A DNA stretch of 48,323 nucleotides from an uncultured Anaerolineaceae bacterium (GTDB lineage Bacteria; Chloroflexota; Anaerolineae; Anaerolineales; Anaerolineaceae), in contig CALMGN010000001.1 of the NCBI GenBank assembly GCA_937863605.1, positions 1 through 48,323 on the forward strand. The letters run 5' to 3'. Shown here piece after piece: positions 8,709 through 42,233 of this stretch. The position numbers and the translations under genes were made by a program. Numbering within the stretch: the stretch's first letter is position 1; each line of letters begins with the position of its first letter. The notes under the pieces were generated by a model. The model had not been told where the DNA came from. It saw only the letters and a program-made list of their open reading frames with translations, and ran no database searches.

Positions 8709-10871
8709 TTAATACCGGCCGCGCGGCTGGGCCGGGACTGCGCCGGTCATCTCCTGCTCGAAGGCTGGGGCAATGCGGACCACGCCGGCTTTATATTCCG
8801 GGATCTTTGCCTGCGGATCGACGGCATCGGTCGTCAGAATGTTCGCAGCTGCTTCCCAGAAATGGAACGGGATAAATACCACACCCGGGTTGGCCTTGGG
8901 TGTCACCCGCGCTCGCAAGACTATCGACCCGCGGCGCGAAGTCACGCGCACCGGGCCGCCGTCGTTGATGCCTAATCTCGCGGCGTCTGCCGGGTTGATT
9001 TCCATCAAAGCTTCAGGGAAAAGATCGTCCATCCATGAGTGGCGCGTCATTGTTCCGCCGTGCCAGTGTTCCAGAACGCGCCCGGTGCTGAGGACGAACG
9101 GGTATTCCTCGTCCGGCATTTCAGCGTTCGGCACGTATTCCAGCGGGTGGAACTTACCCCGCCCACGTGGGAAATCGTTCGTGTAGAGGTAAGCCGTTCC
9201 CGGATGGTCTTCGGTTGGGACCGGGGTCTGCAGGCCAACTTTATCGATGTTGGCATAGCGTACACCGGCATAGTCTGGGACGTTGCTGCCCATTTCCGCC
9301 AGGATTTCGGACGGGTGAGTGTAGTCCCAGTAAGCGGATTGTGGCCTCCCCAGTCGTTTTTCGATGCGTTTTGCGATGTCACAGATGATCTGCCAGTCTG
9401 CGCGAGCTTCCCCGCGTGGCGGGAACGCCTGGCGCACGCGCTGAACGCGTCGGTCCGTGTTGGTGAAGGTGCCGTCTTTTTCGGCAAATGCGGCTGCCGG
9501 CAGGAAAACATCGGCAAAGGCGCCGGATTCATTGATGAACAGGTCCTGCGCGACCACAAATTCCAATTCTTCCATCTTCTTACGGGTATGATTCAGGTTC
9601 GGTTCAGACATCATCGGATTTTCACCCATGATGTACAGCGCTTGCACCCCGCCGGGGTGGACAGCCGAGAGGATTTCGGTGGTGGTTAAGCCGCGCTGGC
9701 GGTTCAAACCGCCGGGTTCGATATTCCAGGTTTTTTCCCAGCGCTGGGCGTTTTGCTCGTTGTCCACCGTCTGATAACCTGGGTAGTGCCAGGGCATGGC
9801 GCCGGAATCGGATGAGCCTTGGACGTTATTCTGCCCGCGCAGCGGGTTCAAGCCGGTGCCGCGGCGGCCGATTTGTCCGGTCACCAGCGCCAGATTAATC
9901 AGACTGAGGGCGTTGGCGGTGCCGTGAGTCGATTCAGGGATGCCAAGCGCCCAGTAGATAGCGCTTTTGCCGGCTGTGGCGTACATGCGAGCTGCGTCGA
10001 TGATCAACTGCCGGTCAACGCCGGAAATAGTTTCGGCATATTCCGGGGTGAACTTCTCCATCGAAGCAGCAAAGGCTTCGAAGTTTTCTGTCCGCTCAGA
10101 GATGAACTGCGTATTTTGTAAATTCTCTTTCAAAATTACATGCGCCATGGCTGAAAACACGGGCACGTCGCTGCCGGGTTTGATCGGCAGGTAGAGCGCC
10201 GCGTAATTGACCATCTCAATGCGCCGCGGATCCACCACGATGAGCCTGGCGCCGTGTTTCTGCACCGCTTTTTTCATTTGCAGCGCAATAATCGGATGGT
10301 TTTCGGACACATTCGAGCCGGTCAACATGAACACGTCACTCTCGACTACCTCGGCAGCCGTGTTGCTCATGGCAGCCGATCCGACTGCCATTTGCAGCGC
10401 TATTACGCTGGCAGCATGACATAACCGGGTGCAGTGATCGACATTGTTGGTGCGGAAGAGAGCCCGGTACATCTTCTGCAGCAGGTAGTTATCTTCGTTG
10501 GTGGCTTTTGCGCAGCAGTATACCGCCATCGCCTGCGAGCCGTCGCGCTGGTAGATTTCGACCAGACGGTCGGCGGCATAATCCAGCGCCTCATCCCAGG
10601 TCGCATCGCGCCATTCGGAGCGGTCAAATGCCTGGGTGCGCGAGCCAGGAGCTTGCCGAGTTTTGCGAATCAGGGGCGTGGTAACGCGCTGCTTATTATA
10701 GATATAGTCGTAACCAAAACGGCCTTTGACGCATAAATTCCCATGGTTAACCACGGAATCAAAGGGCGAGGTCACCCGGTAAATAAAATCATCCTGGATG
10801 TGCAACTGCAAGTTACAACCAACACCGCAGTATGGGCAGGTCGTTGAAACGATTTTTTCAGCTTTTAACAT
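8709..10871 (-). CDS. fdhA: Formate dehydrogenase catalytic (molybdopterin) subunit, Cys type
   Basis: '[14 protein letters not shown]…[12 protein letters not shown]' 4Fe-4S motif; '[10 protein letters not shown]' with Cys at the usual Sec/Cys position; C-terminal '[18 protein letters not shown]…[12 protein letters not shown]'. Confidence 0.93.
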
Positions 10872-10882
10872 GATTCCTCCGG

Positions 10883-11614
10883 TCAGGCCTGCTCGTTTGA
10901 GGGGACTTCGACGCGGCGCCGGCGGTTGCGGCGTTCCGAACGGGTCAGGTCCATAATCTCATCAGGGGTGCGGCCAAGTTCCATCAACCACTGGCGTTTG
11001 GGTTTCAGTGCTCCGGTTGGGCAGACCCCCACGCATTGCCCGCAAAAGACGCAGGTGGATTCGGGCATGGGAATTTCATAAAAGGTGCTGATTTGGGTAT
11101 CGTAGCCACGGCCGGAGAAATTAATGGCGTAGGTGTACTGGGCATCTTCCGCGCACACTTGCACGCAGCGCCAGCATAAAATGCACTTGGCATAGTCGCG
11201 CAGGTACATGGGGTTATCGTCGATAGGCGTTGAAATCCGGCTTTTCGCCTGAGGGTAACGGTCAGGTTCAGCCTTATATTCGGTGATCATGGATTGAATC
11301 TCAGGCGCGTCGGAGAGGTCAACCGTGGATTCCAGCATCTCTAAAATTGTCCGGCGGGAGCGCATGACGCGTTCCGATTGGGTCTGGACTTTCATGCCTT
11401 CGCTGACATTTGCCACGCAGGACGGCACTAATACCCGTGATCCTTCGACTTCCACCACGCAAATACGGCACAGCGCATTGGAGGTGGTTGCTTCGTGAAA
11501 ACAGATGGTTGGAATTTCAATGCCGGCTTCACGCGCAGCGGCCAGGATGGTGGTGCCAGGCGGAACGAATACTTGCTTCCCGTCAATGATCAGGTTGATG
11601 GTATCGCTCATCAC
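10883..11614 (-). CDS. 2Fe-2S / 2x4Fe-4S electron transfer subunit (HoxU / NuoG N-terminal type)
   Basis: '[37 protein letters not shown]', '[11 protein letters not shown]', '[11 protein letters not shown]'. Confidence 0.9.
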
Positions 11615-11626
11615 GGTTCCTCTCGG

Positions 11627-13363
11627 TTATTGTGCCAGTGCTTCGGGAGTCTGAAACAGGTGGGGCCAGTGCTTCATGGCGCTCAGCACCGCGCTGGCGG
11701 CGGTTTGACCCAACCCGCACAAAGACGCATCGGTCATGGTCCAACCAATGTCTTGCAGCCTGTCCCAGTCAGCGGGCAGGATTTGTCCATCCAAAACTCG
11801 CTGGATGATCTCAACCTGGCGCTGGGTGCCCATCTGGCAGGGGTAGCATTTACCACAAGACTCGTCGGCAAAGAATTGAGCCAGGCGCAGACAAATATCG
11901 CGCATATCGCGGGTTTCATCAAACACGGTGATTACGCCGGAGCCAAGGGGAAGGCCAGCAGCGCGTAAATCTTCGAAGGTCAGACGCACATCCAGGTGGG
12001 ACTCCAGAGCAAATGCACCCGCTGCGCCACCAAAAAGCGCGGATTGTAAGCTATGCCCGCTGCGTACGCCGCCCGCCAGGTCGAAAAGTAATTCGCGGAA
12101 GGTGGTGCCAAACGGGACTTCGTACAAACCCGGATGCGCCACGTCACCCGAAAGGCAAAACAGCTTCGGGCCAGGTGATTTCTCTGTGCCAATCTTGCGG
12201 TACTCCTCGGCCCCCATGCGCAAAATCAGTGGCACGTTGGCCAGGGTTTCAACGTTGTTGATCGAGGTCGGTTTGCCGAATAATCCGTTTGTGGTTGGAA
12301 ATGGCGGCTTGACGCGCGGGAAACCGCGTTTCCCTTCGATTGACTCGAACTGGGCAGTCTCCTCCCCGCAAATATAAGCTCCAGCCCCGCGGCGCAATTC
12401 GATGTCAAACTTGAAACCGCTGCCAAAGATATTCTCCCCAAGGAAACCGGCTTCACGGGCTTCCTGCACGGCTGCTTTCATCATCTGGTAGGGACGCAGG
12501 TATTCGCCGCGGACGTAAATGTAGCCTTTACTGGCGCCGACGGCAAAGGCTGCGATCATCAGACCTTCCAAAATGGTATGCGGGTCATCTTCCATCAATA
12601 CCCGGTCTTTGAAGGTGCCGGGTTCCGCCTCATCGGCGTTGCACACCACATATTTTTCGGTACCTGGAGCGCGGGAGGTACCTTCCCACTTAACGCTGGT
12701 CGGGAAAGCTGCCCCGCCGCGGCCTACCAACCCCGCAGCCTTCACCACATCGATCACGGTTGTCGGGCTGCCTGTCAGGGCTTTGCGGTAAGCGGTGTAG
12801 CCGCCCCGGGCTTCATATTGACGCAGGGTGAGGGTATATCCCTGGCCGCAATTAGCGGTTAGAAGCCGGATCGTGCCGCCAACTTTGGCTTCTAGCTGGC
12901 GGGTTTCACCGTTCAACATTTCTTCCCAACTGCGCACATCTGAAAGTCCAACCGGTTTACCGCGCACAAGTGCCGTTGGTGCATGTTCACACAGGCCAAG
13001 GCAAGGGGCGCGTTCAATGGTGACCGTTTGATAGTTTGGATTCTCGGGTGAAAGGGATTCCAGGTGCTGCGTCAACCGCTTCAGAATCGGTTCCGAGCCG
13101 GCCATGGTGCAGGCCGGGTCATTACAGACGTGGATAACCGTTTTTCCGACCGGCTCGCGGTAAAACATGGTATAAAAATCGATGACGCCAAACACTTCCA
13201 CCAGCGGCACGTTCAAGCTGCGGGCGACTTCGGCTGCCACCGGTTCCGGCAAATAGCCGTAAATCTCCTGTGCAGCGTAGAGGGCAGGCAGAAGCGCAGT
13301 TCTGCCCTGTGGAGCGTAATCACCCATTACCGCTTTAAGCGGAGTCAGGTCGAAATCGGTCAT
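11627..13363 (-). CDS. Fused NuoE-NuoF-like NADH-oxidising diaphorase subunit of formate dehydrogenase
   Basis: N-part NuoE ('HVCNDPACTMAGSE…APCLGLCEHAPTALV'), C-part NuoF ('GRGGAAFPTSVKWEG', 'RRGAGAYICGEETA', 'SCGKCYPCQMGTQRQ'); ATG 13363 preceded by GGAGGC on the minus strand. Confidence 0.93.
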   Translation of the reverse strand: MTDFDLTPLKAVMGDYAPQGRTALLPALYAAQEIYGYLPEPVAAEVARSLNVPLVEVFGVIDFYTMFYREPVGKTVIHVCNDPACTMAGSEPILKRLTQHLESLSPENPNYQTVTIERAPCLGLCEHAPTALVRGKPVGLSDVRSWEEMLNGETRQLEAKVGGTIRLLTANCGQGYTLTLRQYEARGGYTAYRKALTGSPTTVIDVVKAAGLVGRGGAAFPTSVKWEGTSRAPGTEKYVVCNADEAEPGTFKDRVLMEDDPHTILEGLMIAAFAVGASKGYIYVRGEYLRPYQMMKAAVQEAREAGFLGENIFGSGFKFDIELRRGAGAYICGEETAQFESIEGKRGFPRVKPPFPTTNGLFGKPTSINNVETLANVPLILRMGAEEYRKIGTEKSPGPKLFCLSGDVAHPGLYEVPFGTTFRELLFDLAGGVRSGHSLQSALFGGAAGAFALESHLDVRLTFEDLRAAGLPLGSGVITVFDETRDMRDICLRLAQFFADESCGKCYPCQMGTQRQVEIIQRVLDGQILPADWDRLQDIGWTMTDASLCGLGQTAASAVLSAMKHWPHLFQTPEALAQ

Positions 13364-13426
13364 GCGGCCTCCTGGTAGAGATAAATTGACAATGGGAGTG
13401 GGGAAAGAGAATTTTACCTTGAAAGG

Positions 13427-13460
13427 TATAATTATATCCAATGTCGCTATCAGTTGTCAT
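13427..13460. promoter_or_regulatory. Overlapping divergent promoters (nuoEF minus / mobA plus)
   Basis: Near-palindromic GGTATAATTATATCC carries TATAAT on both strands (plus 13427-13432; minus 13436-13431); minus strand also has ATGACA at 13460-13455, 18-nt spacer. Confidence 0.6.
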
Positions 13461-14046
13461 TCAAGCTGGCGGTGAATCGCAGCGAATGGGGTCCAATAAG
13501 GCCTTAATGCCCTTTTTGGACGTATTGTTGATCGAGCGGGTATTGGCCCGTGTCCGGCATCTGGCGGACGAATTGCTGGTAACCACCAATCAGCCAGCCG
13601 ATTTCGGCTTTTTGAACTTGCCTCTGTTCCCAGATTCGGTACCGGGTCAGGGGGCGCTGGCCGGCTTGCAGACCGCGTTGGCGGCAGCCAGTCTTCCCTA
13701 TGTGGCGGTCATTGCCTGTGATATGCCGTTTGCCAGTCCGGAACTGATCGCTTACCAATTGGATTGCCTGGTGACCGAAAAGGTGGATGTGGTTGTACCG
13801 CTCACGGATCAAGGCTACGAACCCTTTCATGCCGTTTACCACCGGGAAGTGTGCCTGTCCGCGGTTGCAAACGCGCTGCAAAGCGGGAAAAAACGCATGA
13901 TATCCTGGTTCGACCAGGTCAAAGTCAGAGAATTAGGCACCGAAGAAATCCTCCGGTTCGATCCGCACGGTCGTGCGTTTTTGAATGTCAACACGCCGGA
14001 AGAATTCGCTGCTGCAGAGCAGATGGCTCAAGCCAGCGAGGTTTGA
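13441..14046 (+). CDS. mobA: Molybdenum cofactor guanylyltransferase MobA
   Basis: 'VIQAGGESQRMGSNKALMPF', 'VPGQGALAGLQTALAAA', 'ACDMPFASPELI'. Confidence 0.93.
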   Translation: MSLSVVIQAGGESQRMGSNKALMPFLDVLLIERVLARVRHLADELLVTTNQPADFGFLNLPLFPDSVPGQGALAGLQTALAAASLPYVAVIACDMPFASPELIAYQLDCLVTEKVDVVVPLTDQGYEPFHAVYHREVCLSAVANALQSGKKRMISWFDQVKVRELGTEEILRFDPHGRAFLNVNTPEEFAAAEQMAQASEV

Positions 14047-14852
14047 GCCGGAGTTTCGACCGGCTGTACAGCCCAATTTTCAGGAGAGTACAGCCGGTCG
14101 GGGTGGGTGTACACGTTGCACTGATTGCGGCGGGCATAGCCAACCAGCGTAATGCCAAAATCCTCAGCCAGCTGGATCGACATGGAACTGGGTGAGGTGC
14201 GGGACACCAGGATGGTCGCTCCCATACGCGCTGATTTCTGCAGCATTTCAGAGCTGATGCGCCCGGTAGTGACGATCATGCGCTGCCCGGGTGAAACGTG
14301 CTCGAGTAACAGCAGCCCGGCGATTTTATCAAGGGTATTATGCCGGCCTATATCTTCCGCCTGCGCCAGAATCTCAACACTGTCCGTCAGGATGGAGCAG
14401 TGGACGCCGCGCACTTCGCGGTAAAGCTCCTGGTTTTCCAGCAGCCGGTCCATCCAGCCGAGCAGTATATCCACTGACACCTGATCGCCGGAAACCAGCC
14501 GCTCCGTTTTTTCCTGCGCCGCATCCGAGGTCACTCCGCCGGTGCAACCTGAAGTACGCCGCCAGTGCGGCGGTTTTTCGACCGGATGGGTGAGCCAGAC
14601 GTCCACATTGTCACCGTTATCGCACGGACGTATGACGTCAATTTCATCTAACGAGTGGATGATCGCCTCATTGTATAAGAACCCAACCGCCAACGCTTCC
14701 AATTGGGTGGGGGTGCACATAAAGGTCAACCACAACTGCCCGTTTACAGTTAAACCGACATTTGCTTCAGTGATGATCCCGCCAGTGGACGGTTCCCAGC
14801 CGCGGCTGGATATTTTTGTGTATTGAATGGGGGTAAAAGGAAGTGGTTTCAT
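14028..14852 (-). CDS. fdhD: Formate dehydrogenase accessory sulfurtransferase FdhD
   Basis: 'FMCTPTQLEALAVGFLYNEAII', 'GCTGGVTSD', 'AEDIGRHNTLDKIAG', 'GRISSEMLQKSARMGATILVSRTSPSSMSIQLAEDFGITLVGYAR'. Confidence 0.95.
   Translation of the reverse strand: MKPLPFTPIQYTKISSRGWEPSTGGIITEANVGLTVNGQLWLTFMCTPTQLEALAVGFLYNEAIIHSLDEIDVIRPCDNGDNVDVWLTHPVEKPPHWRRTSGCTGGVTSDAAQEKTERLVSGDQVSVDILLGWMDRLLENQELYREVRGVHCSILTDSVEILAQAEDIGRHNTLDKIAGLLLLEHVSPGQRMIVTTGRISSEMLQKSARMGATILVSRTSPSSMSIQLAEDFGITLVGYARRNQCNVYTHPDRLYSPENWAVQPVETPAQTSLA
14057..14100. repeat. 13-bp perfect inverted repeat (CGACCGGCTGTAC…GTACAGCCGGTCG)
   Basis: Arms 14057-14069 and 14088-14100, 18-nt loop, inside the 3' end of fdhD next to the mobA stop. 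Confidence 0.85.
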
Positions 14853-37965: not shown

Positions 37966-38883
37966 GTGCAGCGAATTGTCTGGTTAAACCTGTTGCTTGG
38001 GCTGGTTCTGGCAGGTTGTTCGGTGCTTGGCACTGATCCTAATGCCGGGCAGCCAACCCCAACAGCGCTGCCTACAACCGACCCTGACGAAGGATTGCGG
38101 GTCACCGTTTCAACGGCCTGCCAGGTGCGCACCTTCCCAACCATCCATGTTGATCCGCCAGCCGGGGACATGATGGGGTGGAGTCCTGACGGGCAAATAT
38201 TTGCCTATGTTACCCCGTTCAATAATCAATGGGGTTGGTTTACCGGTAATTTGACGCTGTTATCCATGGAAACCGGTGAAATCCGCGCTACGCGAGACAC
38301 AAAAGTGACCGGGGATATCACCTGGTCGCCGGATGGCACCCGAATCGCGTTTACGGCGCTGCGTACGACCGAGAACCTGTACACGGTCATCGTGCTGTTG
38401 ACCTCCGACTTTACCCCGTTGGATTTGTATGCGGCCGGCGCCGCTACCGATGATTTTGGCAGCGCTAAAGGGATCGTGCGCTGGACGGATAACAACCGCA
38501 TCCAAGTGAACGAGACCTGCGGCGTGGATTGCTCGCGGGTGGTGGAAATCAATATCTCCGGTCAAGGCCAACAAGTGTTACAGACCGGCCGCAAACAAGA
38601 TGGTACCAGTCTGAAAATTGCACTCAATCAAAAGGGCATCGCCGCCAACCCGGAATGGCAGATGGCGAATGCTTCGCCGGATGGCAGTCGAATATTTTAT
38701 GTCGATCAAGACGACCAGGCCTGGATGGCTGCTCCGGATGAGGGCTATAAGTACCGGTTGACCCTGGATATGGAGTTTGTGCAGGAGTCGAAATGGTCAC
38801 CGGGCTCGCAGCTGATCGCGGTGCGTACCGACGAGAATATTTTCCTCTACGACCTGGAATGTTCACTCGACTTACCGGAGTAA
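37966..38883 (+). CDS. Lipoprotein with TolB/WD40-like β-propeller repeats
   Basis: Lipobox 'VLAGCS'; 'GWSPDGQIFAYV', 'TWSPDGTRIAFTAL', 'NASPDGSRIFYV'; GTG start with AAGGAG. Confidence 0.8.
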   Translation: MQRIVWLNLLLGLVLAGCSVLGTDPNAGQPTPTALPTTDPDEGLRVTVSTACQVRTFPTIHVDPPAGDMMGWSPDGQIFAYVTPFNNQWGWFTGNLTLLSMETGEIRATRDTKVTGDITWSPDGTRIAFTALRTTENLYTVIVLLTSDFTPLDLYAAGAATDDFGSAKGIVRWTDNNRIQVNETCGVDCSRVVEINISGQGQQVLQTGRKQDGTSLKIALNQKGIAANPEWQMANASPDGSRIFYVDQDDQAWMAAPDEGYKYRLTLDMEFVQESKWSPGSQLIAVRTDENIFLYDLECSLDLPE

Positions 38884-38951
38884 TCCTAAAAACTCCCCGG
38901 ACATCAAAAAACCATATATTTAACCCGAACAACAACATACAAATCATGATA

Positions 38952-38993
38952 ATAAAACAGACCGGTGGATCAATAACCCGCCGTCTGTTTTAT
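38952..38993. terminator. Bidirectional terminator between convergent genes
   Basis: ATAAAACAGAC…GTCTGTTTTAT inverted repeat with A-rich and T-rich flanks. Confidence 0.75.
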
Positions 38994-39015
38994 TTAATCC
39001 GGGTGGGCATATCGA

Positions 39016-39867
39016 TTACTGGCTAATCAAATCCAGGCTGCCGACGCCCATATTCACGGTGATATCGATTCGCGGTCCTGTGCCAGTTTTCTCATATACA
39101 TTGCCGGTGATCGACCAGGTGCCGTGCGGAGAAACATTGTTCAATCCGCCGGAAATAGTCACCCGGGCGGGGACATTTTCAGGGATGATGATTTCGATTT
39201 TGCTTACACCTGATGTTACTTTGACTGCCAGATCCTGCTCGAGCGTTCCGGAGAAATCCAGCCTGTAATCCCCGGCGCCGCCATCAAAGGTGAACAGGGA
39301 GGTGTTGGCGTTTCCAATCCCGTAAATTTTCACCTGCGAGGCGCCGGTTTTGTACGTAAAGCTGTCCATGCTAATCGGGTTGGGGCCGTTGAACTCCACT
39401 GTCGCTTTGCTGGCGCCGTCAGAGATTTTCAGGTTGGTCAGTGCCACCCCGCTCAGGTCGATCAACCCCTCATAAGCCCCGGCAGAGATTTCCAGGTCAG
39501 TTGGAAATGCGCCGAGTGAAAGATCCCATTCGTTAATCACTTTATTGTTTGGGATCTTGATATCTTCCAGTCGTCCCTGATGGATGCGTAAACTGCCGTC
39601 GCTGCGAGTGACTTCGGGCGTCCAACCAAAAACGTTGTAGGTGATGGTGCCTTCGATCAATCCCGCGGCGCCGCCGGTGAAGTTCAATTTTCCGGCGCCC
39701 ATATCAATTTCGACTTTGGCCTCCGCCAAATTTGTTGGAGCGGCCTCGTTAATTTCCATGACCTGAGTGTCACCTACTTTGTCCTCCTTGGTATTGACCG
39801 AGAATGAACAGGCCAGGGTGGCTCCGGTGATCGCCAGAATAGCTAAAGTGATTGCGATTTTTCTCAT
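39016..39867 (-). CDS. Lipoprotein with DUF4097/toastrack-like β domain
   Basis: Lipobox 'TLACS'; repetitive β pattern ('MGAGKLNFTGGAAGLIEGTITYN…ITVNMGVGSLDLIS'). Confidence 0.7.
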   Translation of the reverse strand: MRKIAITLAILAITGATLACSFSVNTKEDKVGDTQVMEINEAAPTNLAEAKVEIDMGAGKLNFTGGAAGLIEGTITYNVFGWTPEVTRSDGSLRIHQGRLEDIKIPNNKVINEWDLSLGAFPTDLEISAGAYEGLIDLSGVALTNLKISDGASKATVEFNGPNPISMDSFTYKTGASQVKIYGIGNANTSLFTFDGGAGDYRLDFSGTLEQDLAVKVTSGVSKIEIIIPENVPARVTISGGLNNVSPHGTWSITGNVYEKTGTGPRIDITVNMGVGSLDLISQ

Positions 39868-39914
39868 TTCCTTCTCCTTCGGTGATCTTATCCCGTACTA
39901 TTTAAGACAGATCG

Positions 39915-40994
39915 TTAAATGTTATTAGAGCTGTCATCTGCTTTAGGCGCTTCGGATGGAGCGTTTGGCGCCGGGCTGGCAGGTGGAATAATCTCGATGA
40001 CCGGGGCAGGTGGGGTGCCATTCGGGGCAGCGGTACGGGAGCCGAACCCGCTCAAGATAACGCCACCTAGCCCGGCACAAGCTGCGACAAAGCCGATCAA
40101 CCATCCTACGCACGGCACATAGCCCAGGATTGCAACCACAATTCCAAGGGCCAGTGTCCCAATGCCGGCTGAAACTGCATCTGCCCATTCGGTTTTGAAC
40201 AGCACCTCCATGCGCCGACCGATCTGGAACCCGATTGCAATCCAGCCGAAGATGATTGCCACGGCCAGTGCCAGGGCAGCCAGGAAGGTGAGAGGAATCA
40301 GGATGATGGTGATCGTTAAAACCAGCACCACAAAGGGCGTTACCAAGAATGCCAAAAAGCCGGCGCCGCCGCTCATCCACGGTTGGTTGACAATCGAGTC
40401 AGCCACCCGTTTGACGGGACGCGGCAGCAGTAATCCTAAAACTACTGCCAACACAGCCATTGCCAGAAGCTGCATGGCCTTTCCCAGGAATCCGAGGACC
40501 CAACCGCCGACTGTGTTAACGGGAGATGTTTGACCTGATTGCGGAAAACGGAAGGCGTCCCGGTCAAATTGCAGCGCACGGGGGGTGAAAGTGCGAATGC
40601 CGCCGCGGATGGTACCCAGCTCTGCACCGGTAACATTCCCGCCCATGCTGATGATTTCGCCGGTCACCAGGGCGCCCTTTGAAATGGATACGTTCGCCCC
40701 AATGGCGGCAATATCGCCGTTGGCGCTGCCGGCCAAATCGAGGTTGCCTCCCAGCAAGGCGATTTCACCATTGACCGCTGCACCGCTTGCGATGGTGACA
40801 GATCCGCCCAACACAACCAGGTCGCCGTTCAACGTCTGGCCGGATTGCAGAATGTAGTTATCCCCGAAAATCACCTGGTCGCCTGAGATGACTTCACCAG
40901 ACTGGTTCAATGGTTGAGCCAGAACCGCTGTCGGGGTGGTCAGGAAAATGAGGATGACTAGAATGGAGAATAAAAAATTAAAGTTTGTTTTCAT
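39915..40994 (-). CDS. Exported bactofilin-like β-helix domain fused to multi-TM domain
   Basis: Signal peptide; 'GQTLNGDLVVLGGSVTIASGAAVNGEIALLGGNLDLAGSANGDIAAIGANVSISKGALVTGEIISMGGNV' then several TM helices. Confidence 0.75.
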   Translation of the reverse strand: MKTNFNFLFSILVILIFLTTPTAVLAQPLNQSGEVISGDQVIFGDNYILQSGQTLNGDLVVLGGSVTIASGAAVNGEIALLGGNLDLAGSANGDIAAIGANVSISKGALVTGEIISMGGNVTGAELGTIRGGIRTFTPRALQFDRDAFRFPQSGQTSPVNTVGGWVLGFLGKAMQLLAMAVLAVVLGLLLPRPVKRVADSIVNQPWMSGGAGFLAFLVTPFVVLVLTITIILIPLTFLAALALAVAIIFGWIAIGFQIGRRMEVLFKTEWADAVSAGIGTLALGIVVAILGYVPCVGWLIGFVAACAGLGGVILSGFGSRTAAPNGTPPAPVIEIIPPASPAPNAPSEAPKADDSSNNI

Positions 40995-41527
40995 CTTAGT
41001 ATTTCTCCTTGACGATGAAATCGCTTGTATGTCAACGCGCCGGTAATCGTGAAAACCATCATCCAGGCGGCGATGATAATGCTGGCGCCTATCCAGGCCA
41101 GCGGAGGAATTTTAGTAAGCCAGAAGGCGGCAATGAAGCGTAATTCCAGCAGGTTGAACGGCGCATCCGCAATGACCCGGATGACTGAACCGATCCAATT
41201 AGCCGGCGAGGTGCGGGTGAGGGTATAGGCTGCCAGCAAAATCAAGATCACCAACAGAGAGATTCCAAGAGCCCCCAACATTTTTTGCGTCTGTTTGCGG
41301 TGAGCCAGGCGGCGGCGTTCAACCAGACTGTTTTGGAAGCGGATCGAGAAACCGGTGGGAGCCTTTACCCTTTGAGCGGTTTTCATCTCAATTTGGATGC
41401 AATCCCAGGTAGCAGCCGTCAGTCTACATTCGGGACAGGTCTCGAGATGGCGCGCCATTTCTGCCTGCTGATCAGGCGAAAGTACGGTTCGATCCAGGTT
41501 CCAGGTTTCAAAAGGCTGGTGATTCAT
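40991..41527 (-). CDS. Zinc-finger anti-sigma factor (putative), two TM helices
   Basis: 'HLETCPEC' HxxxCxxC motif, two hydrophobic helices; 20-nt overlap with the sigma gene. Confidence 0.75.
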   Translation of the reverse strand: MNHQPFETWNLDRTVLSPDQQAEMARHLETCPECRLTAATWDCIQIEMKTAQRVKAPTGFSIRFQNSLVERRRLAHRKQTQKMLGALGISLLVILILLAAYTLTRTSPANWIGSVIRVIADAPFNLLELRFIAAFWLTKIPPLAWIGASIIIAAWMMVFTITGALTYKRFHRQGEILR

Positions 41528-42131
41528 CGTGGATACCTCCCGGTGTGAGTTTCCGGTCAGCCTCATACAGGCTGGCGAACTTTATTCGTGCGCGGTGCAG
41601 CCTGCTTTTAACTGCGCTGACAGATAATTGCAGAGCCCGGCTGATTTCCTCTTCAGAAAATTCATACCAGTAGCGCAGGATGATCGCAGCCCGGTCCTGA
41701 GGATTTAAAGTAGCTAACATTCGATGTATACGTTCCTTTTCTTCACGGACGCCGGTTATTTTTTCCGGATTCGGAGTGTTGTCGGGCAGCACCTCTTCCA
41801 TCCAGTCCTCGATCTCCAGTGTTGGCAGGCGCCGTTTGCGCTGCTGGTCGATGCAGTAGTGAGCGGTGATCGAAAGAAGCCAGGTTGCGAACGGTCGACT
41901 CCGGTCATAGCGGCGAATGGCCTGGTACGCGCGCCAGAAGGATTCCTGGGCTGCATCTTCCGCTTCGGTTGGTTCGCCCAGCATGCGATAACACAGGTTA
42001 TAGACCGGATTTTGATACCGTTCTACCAGCTGCGTAAACGCTTCTTCACTTCCGTTCTGGGCAAGAACCAGCAACTCGTTCTCGTCGATGCTCAACGTTG
42101 GCTCCGCATTCGGATTTGTTTCTTGTTTCAT
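41508..42131 (-). CDS. ECF-type RNA polymerase sigma factor
   Basis: 'YQNPVYNLCYRMLGEPTEAEDAAQESFWRAYQAIRRYD', 'RAAIILRYWYEFSEEEISRALQLSVSAVKSRLHRAR'. Confidence 0.95.
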   Translation of the reverse strand: MKQETNPNAEPTLSIDENELLVLAQNGSEEAFTQLVERYQNPVYNLCYRMLGEPTEAEDAAQESFWRAYQAIRRYDRSRPFATWLLSITAHYCIDQQRKRRLPTLEIEDWMEEVLPDNTPNPEKITGVREEKERIHRMLATLNPQDRAAIILRYWYEFSEEEISRALQLSVSAVKSRLHRARIKFASLYEADRKLTPGGIHDESPAF

Positions 42132-42233
42132 ATACGCATTCCTCGCTTGCAGGTTGCGTTGAAGCAGGCGTGTCCCTGTTTTCTAATGCAAATTTAATCT
42201 ATCATACTGCGATTTCTGCTAATTGCGGGAGCC

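Follow-up and report, generated by a model that had tools for sequence, protein, structure and literature searches.

Does a bactofilin-like protein encoded behind an extracytoplasmic function (ECF) sigma factor and its anti-sigma factor help to control that sigma factor, or is it one of the products that the factor switches on? We address this question for an operon in a 48,323-nucleotide stretch of DNA from an uncultured Anaerolineaceae bacterium of the phylum Chloroflexota (contig CALMGN010000001.1; “the window” hereafter means this whole stretch). On its minus strand lie, in order, the genes for an ECF sigma factor, a zf-HC2 anti-sigma factor, an exported bactofilin-like membrane protein, and a Toastrack lipoprotein (Table 1). 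An initial annotation of the window had described four tightly packed genes, with a 20-nt overlap between sigma and anti-sigma and a 4-nt overlap (ATGA) between anti-sigma and the bactofilin-like gene; we find all four in place and both overlaps exact, with the anti-sigma start lying inside the sigma gene. We consider it likely that this operon is a sigma-W-like, autoregulated system for envelope stress that includes a membrane partner of bactofilin type, and that it governs a Psp/Lia/Toastrack response that does without PspA.

The two regulators fit an ECF sigma factor with a class I zinc-binding (zf-HC2) anti-sigma factor. The sigma factor has regions 2 and 4 only (Pfam Sigma70_r2, PF04542, 1e-19; Sigma70_r4_2, PF08281, 8e-18). 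Its best NCBIfam model is SigW (5e-39), and with a score of 134.2 bits against a curated cut-off of 209 (PRK09641.1) it does not qualify as a SigW orthologue by that test. The anti-sigma factor, encoded beside the sigma factor and predicted to be anchored in the membrane, carries the zinc motif HLETCPEC and matches zf-HC2 (3e-5); across its family, HxxxCxxC is present in 93 of 106 members and two transmembrane (TM) helices are predicted in 74 of 106. In the window's protein, these helices span residues 83-101 and 143-161, leaving an outer loop of only ~40 residues in which there is no evident extracytoplasmic sensor domain. In the sigma-W system of Bacillus subtilis, RsiW is a zf-HC2 membrane anti-sigma factor that is cut by PrsW-type proteases. 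PrsW-family proteases are encoded in 28 of 31 relative genomes and are candidates for the sigma release step here; no link between them and the operon was found.

The first three genes of the operon travel together. The bactofilin-like gene was found in 134 of 151 relative genomes, and Bellilinea caldifistulae GOMI-1 carries a homologue. Among 110 loci, the sigma and anti-sigma genes lie directly upstream of it in nearly all that are uncut by contig ends. Most of the Anaerolineales loci examined have the complete trio, as do 71 of 79 in a second, named collection (whose genomes partly overlap those of the first) and many loci from other families of Chloroflexota, so the linkage proposed at the outset is conserved when neighborhoods are compared across the phylum. 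The gene overlaps are conserved as well: the overlap of sigma and anti-sigma measures exactly 20 nt at 79/104 loci, and that of anti-sigma and the bactofilin-like gene 4 nt at 51/106, which argues that the arrangement is not due to chance and indicates translational coupling of the three genes. While the bactofilin-like gene is kept behind the anti-sigma gene, a Toastrack gene follows the trio in only 52 of 110 loci, nadD-obgE or other genes being found there otherwise. The conserved core therefore consists of three genes; of the four-gene operon first described, the order in the window stands, and the Toastrack gene has been added in certain lineages only. In some Thermoflexales/Thermoflexia-type loci (among L371, L376, L378, L393, and L396), the Toastrack gene is located between the anti-sigma and bactofilin-like genes, and in L396 upstream of sigma, a sign that Toastrack has become associated with this operon repeatedly. 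A second ECF sigma gene lies 3' of the bactofilin-like gene, on the same strand, in L055, L058, L060, L063, L081, and L379. Outside the phylum, a metagenome-assembled genome of Pedosphaera (Verrucomicrobiota) has genes for a sigma factor, a 160-aa TM protein, and a bactofilin-like protein in a row (L394:1427-4015), and from this genome the sigma/membrane-protein/bactofilin arrangement may extend beyond Chloroflexota.

A conserved promoter precedes the sigma gene. The pair GCAA-N17-CGTA occurs upstream of sigma in 72 of 102 loci, compared to 7 for the best pair in shuffled sequences, and the consensus, TGCAAC-N16-CGTATA, has the form of an autoregulated ECF promoter. The operon is thus probably autoregulated. 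The cultured species Bellilinea caldifistulae and Levilinea saccharolytica have both the operon and this promoter.

The same promoter recurs elsewhere in these genomes. We counted exact TGCAAC-N16-CGTATA sites genome-wide, including the operons' own sites and using the reversed pattern as a control, and obtained 113 sites versus 6 controls in the 36 trio-bearing family genomes scanned. The first open reading frames (ORFs) behind the 79 non-operon sites encode DUF2807 lipoproteins (8), LiaI-LiaF-TM (7), PspC (4, with near-duplicates removed), YccF (3), Sensor (3), ABC transporters (3), holin-4 (2), and a second, exported bactofilin (2). A reverse test took PspC and DUF2807 genes by family, blind to the motif, with 270 ORFs beside the trio as controls. 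Among the PspC genes, 22/30 scored above the 99% shuffle threshold and 20/30 above every shuffle; 13/29 DUF2807 genes and 1/270 controls also exceeded every shuffle (Fisher versus controls, 8e-23 for PspC and 5e-14 for DUF2807, computed on related sequences that are not independent samples).

Promoter sites also accompany the trio. Within the family, site-bearing genomes make up 34/36 of those with the trio versus 0/7 of those without (Fisher 1e-6, a value that is optimistic through relatedness, as five of the seven represent one genus), and there were no sites in any of the 11 genomes without a detected trio. For one genus of this family (G021, G052, G067, G077, and G085), neither the trio nor promoter sites were found, and PspC was not found in G021 and G052, the two members checked. 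In the window's genome, exact sites precede the genes for a PspC/LiaF-TM pair, a 222-aa membrane protein, and a small membrane protein, and the corresponding genes in sister species have similar sites ahead of them. PspA was present in 1 of 41 genomes searched, and not in the window's genome; the strict form of the Psp response, with PspA/IM30 present, is not what we see here. PspC, LiaF-TM, and DUF2807/Toastrack genes nevertheless appear to share the promoter of the sigma operon, and we predict a Psp/Lia-like common control. This shared promoter lends support to the role in envelope stress that the initial annotation had suggested.

The nature of the third core protein emerges from its predicted structure. 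The window's bactofilin-like protein has no credible match in Pfam or NCBIfam, and a sequence profile against PDB chains reached a bactofilin only at E 0.24, so a fold comparison was needed to recognize it. Its AlphaFold model (pLDDT 86.8) matches the Thermus bactofilin filament structure 6rib in Foldseek (prob 0.99, TMt 0.62, 14% identity); the poor E-value (0.12) probably reflects the membrane domain, which in the model makes up at least a third of the protein and so fills much of the query. Among 70 aligned family members, 45 match PF04519 (Bactofilin), and the mean column identity of the family alignment is 27%. The beta-helix of bactofilins is typically cytoplasmic, whereas a signal peptide and an N-out topology would, by prediction only, place this one on the other side of the membrane; we therefore use the name “bactofilin-like.” A second, longer exported bactofilin-type protein (~490 aa) is encoded directly behind the sigma-type promoter in two genomes (L235:337-1830 and L237:921-2390).

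The Toastrack lipoprotein matches PDB 4qrk by profile (1e-27) and by fold comparison (3e-15), and both beta proteins are predicted to face outward. Structure prediction thus gives each of them a recognizable fold, bactofilin for one and Toastrack for the other, and bears out the earlier description of an exported beta-helix ahead of a multi-TM domain. The Toastrack protein had been described as a lipoprotein with a DUF4097/LiaF-like beta domain. It is indeed a predicted lipoprotein, with a lipobox cysteine (C20) that is invariant in 47 aligned sequences and a lipobox in 52/52 family members, and it gives a weak LiaF C-terminal match; the family is Toast_rack_N (PF17115, DUF2154; 4e-13) and not DUF4097.

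Gene fusions bear on the question of sensor or output. In G294 and its relatives, a single ORF of 444-459 aa encodes a zf-HC2 anti-sigma factor with TM helices followed by a bactofilin-TM domain. This fusion occurs in five genomes of three genera, and two of the five loci carry TGCAAC-N16-CGTATA in the upstream locus sequence. Apparent fusions in L301 and L305 were overlapping frames and were discarded. When two proteins are fused naturally in this way, they usually work in a single complex. Combined with translational coupling and the short outer loop of the anti-sigma factor, the fusions favor a place for the bactofilin-like protein in the sensing/inhibitory complex, to which it probably belongs rather than being merely an output; such a role does not exclude an added structural one. 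The initial annotation had pictured an envelope-sensing system whose outputs are surface beta scaffolds. Its envelope role is retained on the strength of the shared promoters, and the bactofilin-like protein shifts, probably, to the sensor complex. The main outputs are predicted to lie elsewhere in the genome, behind the promoter that they share with the sigma operon (PspC, LiaF-TM, DUF2807 lipoproteins, transporters, and the second exported bactofilin).

The sigma-W-like system that we favor would work as follows. The two-TM zf-HC2 anti-sigma factor would hold the sigma factor, and the bactofilin-like protein, through a putative contact with the anti-sigma factor, would supply the outward-facing sensing part of the complex. 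Envelope stress would alter this complex and free the sigma factor. Once free, the factor would transcribe its own operon, producing more anti-sigma and bactofilin-like protein as feedback and, in Anaerolineaceae, often the Toastrack lipoprotein too. It would also read the scattered TGCAAC-N16-CGTATA regulon of PspC, LiaF-TM, Toastrack/DUF2807 lipoproteins, small membrane proteins, transporters, and the second exported bactofilin. In a bolder version, which is possible and which we hold with more doubt than confidence, the extracytoplasmic bactofilin is a signaling device in which the beta-helix polymerizes or binds at the cell wall, and the membrane complex with the anti-sigma factor reads this event and triggers the PspA-free response.

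The alternative closest to the initial annotation is that sigma and anti-sigma sense alone, with the bactofilin-like protein and the Toastrack lipoprotein made purely in response, as surface scaffolds. Both beta proteins are encoded in a probably autoregulated operon, and proteins of both kinds can be outputs, since the predicted regulon includes many Toastrack proteins as well as a second exported bactofilin. We nonetheless regard this alternative as unlikely, given an anti-sigma factor without an evident sensor domain of its own, the five genomes in which anti-sigma and bactofilin-TM are fused, and a bactofilin gene that throughout the phylum stays behind anti-sigma, in contrast to a Toastrack gene that is present in some loci and absent from others. 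Less credible still is the idea that the bactofilin-like protein is mainly a structural, polymerizing scaffold outside the membrane, tied to the anti-sigma factor only for localization: the match to a filament structure speaks for it, but columns of the alignment average only 27% identity, and at least a third of the protein is membrane domain. We assign a similarly low probability to the motif being that of a different regulator or of several ECF factors, in which case the PspC/LiaF/DUF2807 regulon would not be specific to this sigma factor. These genomes likely encode further ECF sigmas, and some loci have a second sigma gene beside the trio; however, the motif lies directly upstream of the sigma factor's own gene in most loci, as is usual for autoregulated ECF genes, and family members without the trio have no sites.

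Several points weigh against the sigma-W-like system that we prefer. Because the genomes behind the counts are related, independence is overstated in the statistics, and the Fisher values are not independent-sample probabilities. In the window's genome, a one-mismatch pattern yields 28 sites versus 48 controls, which is not above control; we set one-mismatch sites aside as noise there and regard only exact or sister-conserved sites as credible. (One such site, just upstream of a second PspC gene on G000 contig 284, is plausible by position only.) Many trio-bearing genomes outside the family have no exact site, the promoter there being diverged, different, or missed by the exact pattern, and the fusion was seen in one family only. 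The promoter could also be shared with other ECF factors of these genomes. Finally, the case is computed from sequence and predicted structures, and promoter reading by the sigma factor, binding, release, signal, polymerization, and location are all predictions.

Known systems offer partial parallels. In B. subtilis sigma-M/YhdL/YhdK, an ECF sigma factor is inhibited by an adjacently encoded pair of membrane proteins, which resembles the neighboring membrane-protein pair of our operon; unlike the bactofilin-like protein, YhdK is small and has no beta-helix. The closest known logic is that of sigma-W/RsiW and the Psp-like yvlABCD, which is alike in its ECF sigma factor (SigW being the best model here), in its zf-HC2 membrane anti-sigma factor, and in a control of PspC, Toastrack, and holin-like genes that is predicted for the present system; we take this as a likeness in kind, as orthology is unsupported by the SigW model score. 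At least partial sigma-W dependence has been described for yvlABCD, which comprises PspC, Toastrack, and holin-like genes (PMC12791056). In contrast to sigma-W/RsiW, the anti-sigma factor here has two predicted TM helices and a bactofilin-TM partner gene, the promoter is TGCAAC/CGTATA, and 40/41 relatives have no PspA. Ravi et al. 2024 present Toastrack, LiaF-TM, and PspC as partners, mention that a sigma factor is operon-linked in a Toastrack context, and infer the Toastrack domain to be intracellular (PMC11237479). These partner domains are common to LiaFSR/Psp systems and to the present one, in which the linked regulator is instead an ECF sigma factor with a bactofilin-linked anti-sigma factor and Toastrack is a predicted exported lipoprotein. 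Bactofilins (6rib, BacA 2n3d, PF04519) share the beta-helix fold, and most aligned members of our family (45/70) match PF04519; the differences are the signal peptide, the C-terminal membrane domain, the predicted outside location, the link to an anti-sigma factor, and the low (14%) identity to 6rib. Among the titles and abstracts searched, we found no bactofilin linked to a co-encoded ECF/anti-sigma pair, and a prior listing in an ECF classification is possible.

These results predict an envelope-stress regulon, recognizable by its promoter code, for a large and experimentally poorly known phylum, and in genomes without PspA they put effector genes of Psp/Lia type under what appears to be an ECF sigma factor. 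They suggest that bactofilin folds can serve in signaling outside the membrane and that Toastrack proteins, for which an intracellular location had been inferred, can be lipoproteins that are exported. If the bolder version of the model holds, a cytoskeleton-type fold outside the cell would control a sigma-driven, PspA-free membrane protection in Chloroflexota.

Table 1. Features of the operon and its flanks, in window coordinates
Feature	Position	Strand	Details
-35 element GCAACC of the conserved ECF promoter	42152..42157	-	Motif upstream of sigma in relatives; position
-10 element CGTATA	42131..42136	-	Conserved upstream motif; position
Ribosome-binding site GGAGC ahead of the revised sigma start codon	42101..42105	-	Sequence; GGAGC-xTG arrangement also in relatives
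ECF sigma factor	41508..42095	-	195 aa from revised TTG; ORF reaches ATG 42131; Pfam, NCBIfam, start revision
Sigma/anti-sigma gene overlap, 20 nt	41508..41527	-	Same length in 79/104 loci
zf-HC2 anti-sigma factor, 178 aa	40991..41527	-	zf-HC2 3e-5; two predicted TM helices, short extracytoplasmic loop
Exported bactofilin-like membrane protein, 359 aa	39915..40994	-	AlphaFold; Foldseek 6rib; relatives match PF04519
Predicted signal peptide, residues 1-26, cleavage AVLA/QP	40917..40994	-	Hydrophobic segment 7-25; sequence; model helix 4-19
Bactofilin-type beta-helix, residues 35-136	40587..40892	-	Modeled strands 35-136; 6rib match
C-terminal multi-helix membrane domain, residues 161-315	40050..40514	-	Six helices in model; TM segments
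Toastrack lipoprotein, 283 aa, lipobox C20	39016..39867	-	PF17115; PDB 4qrk
Probable intrinsic terminator, strong hairpin then U-rich stretch	38950..38994	-	RNA fold -21.4 kcal/mol, z -5.6

The sigma start in Table 1 is a revision. The -10 element (42136-42131) directly adjoins the ATG at 42131, which would put this codon no further along than the point where transcription begins, so the TTG at 42095 behind GGAGC is the more likely start codon; the resulting length is the usual one for this sigma family. A generic sigma-70/terminator scan found nothing above shuffles, and the terminator-like hairpin was seen by folding the region 3' of the last gene. Between nadD and the Toastrack gene, a convergent gene (37966-38883, plus strand) encodes a lipoprotein with TolB-like WSPDG repeats, and a similar sequence adjoins the operon in several congeneric genomes. 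Further away in the window, positions 8709-14852 hold genes for molybdopterin oxidoreductase, NuoE/F-like, and ferredoxin-domain subunits together with mobA and fdhD-like genes, a cluster that, judged from translations only, resembles an NAD-dependent formate dehydrogenase.

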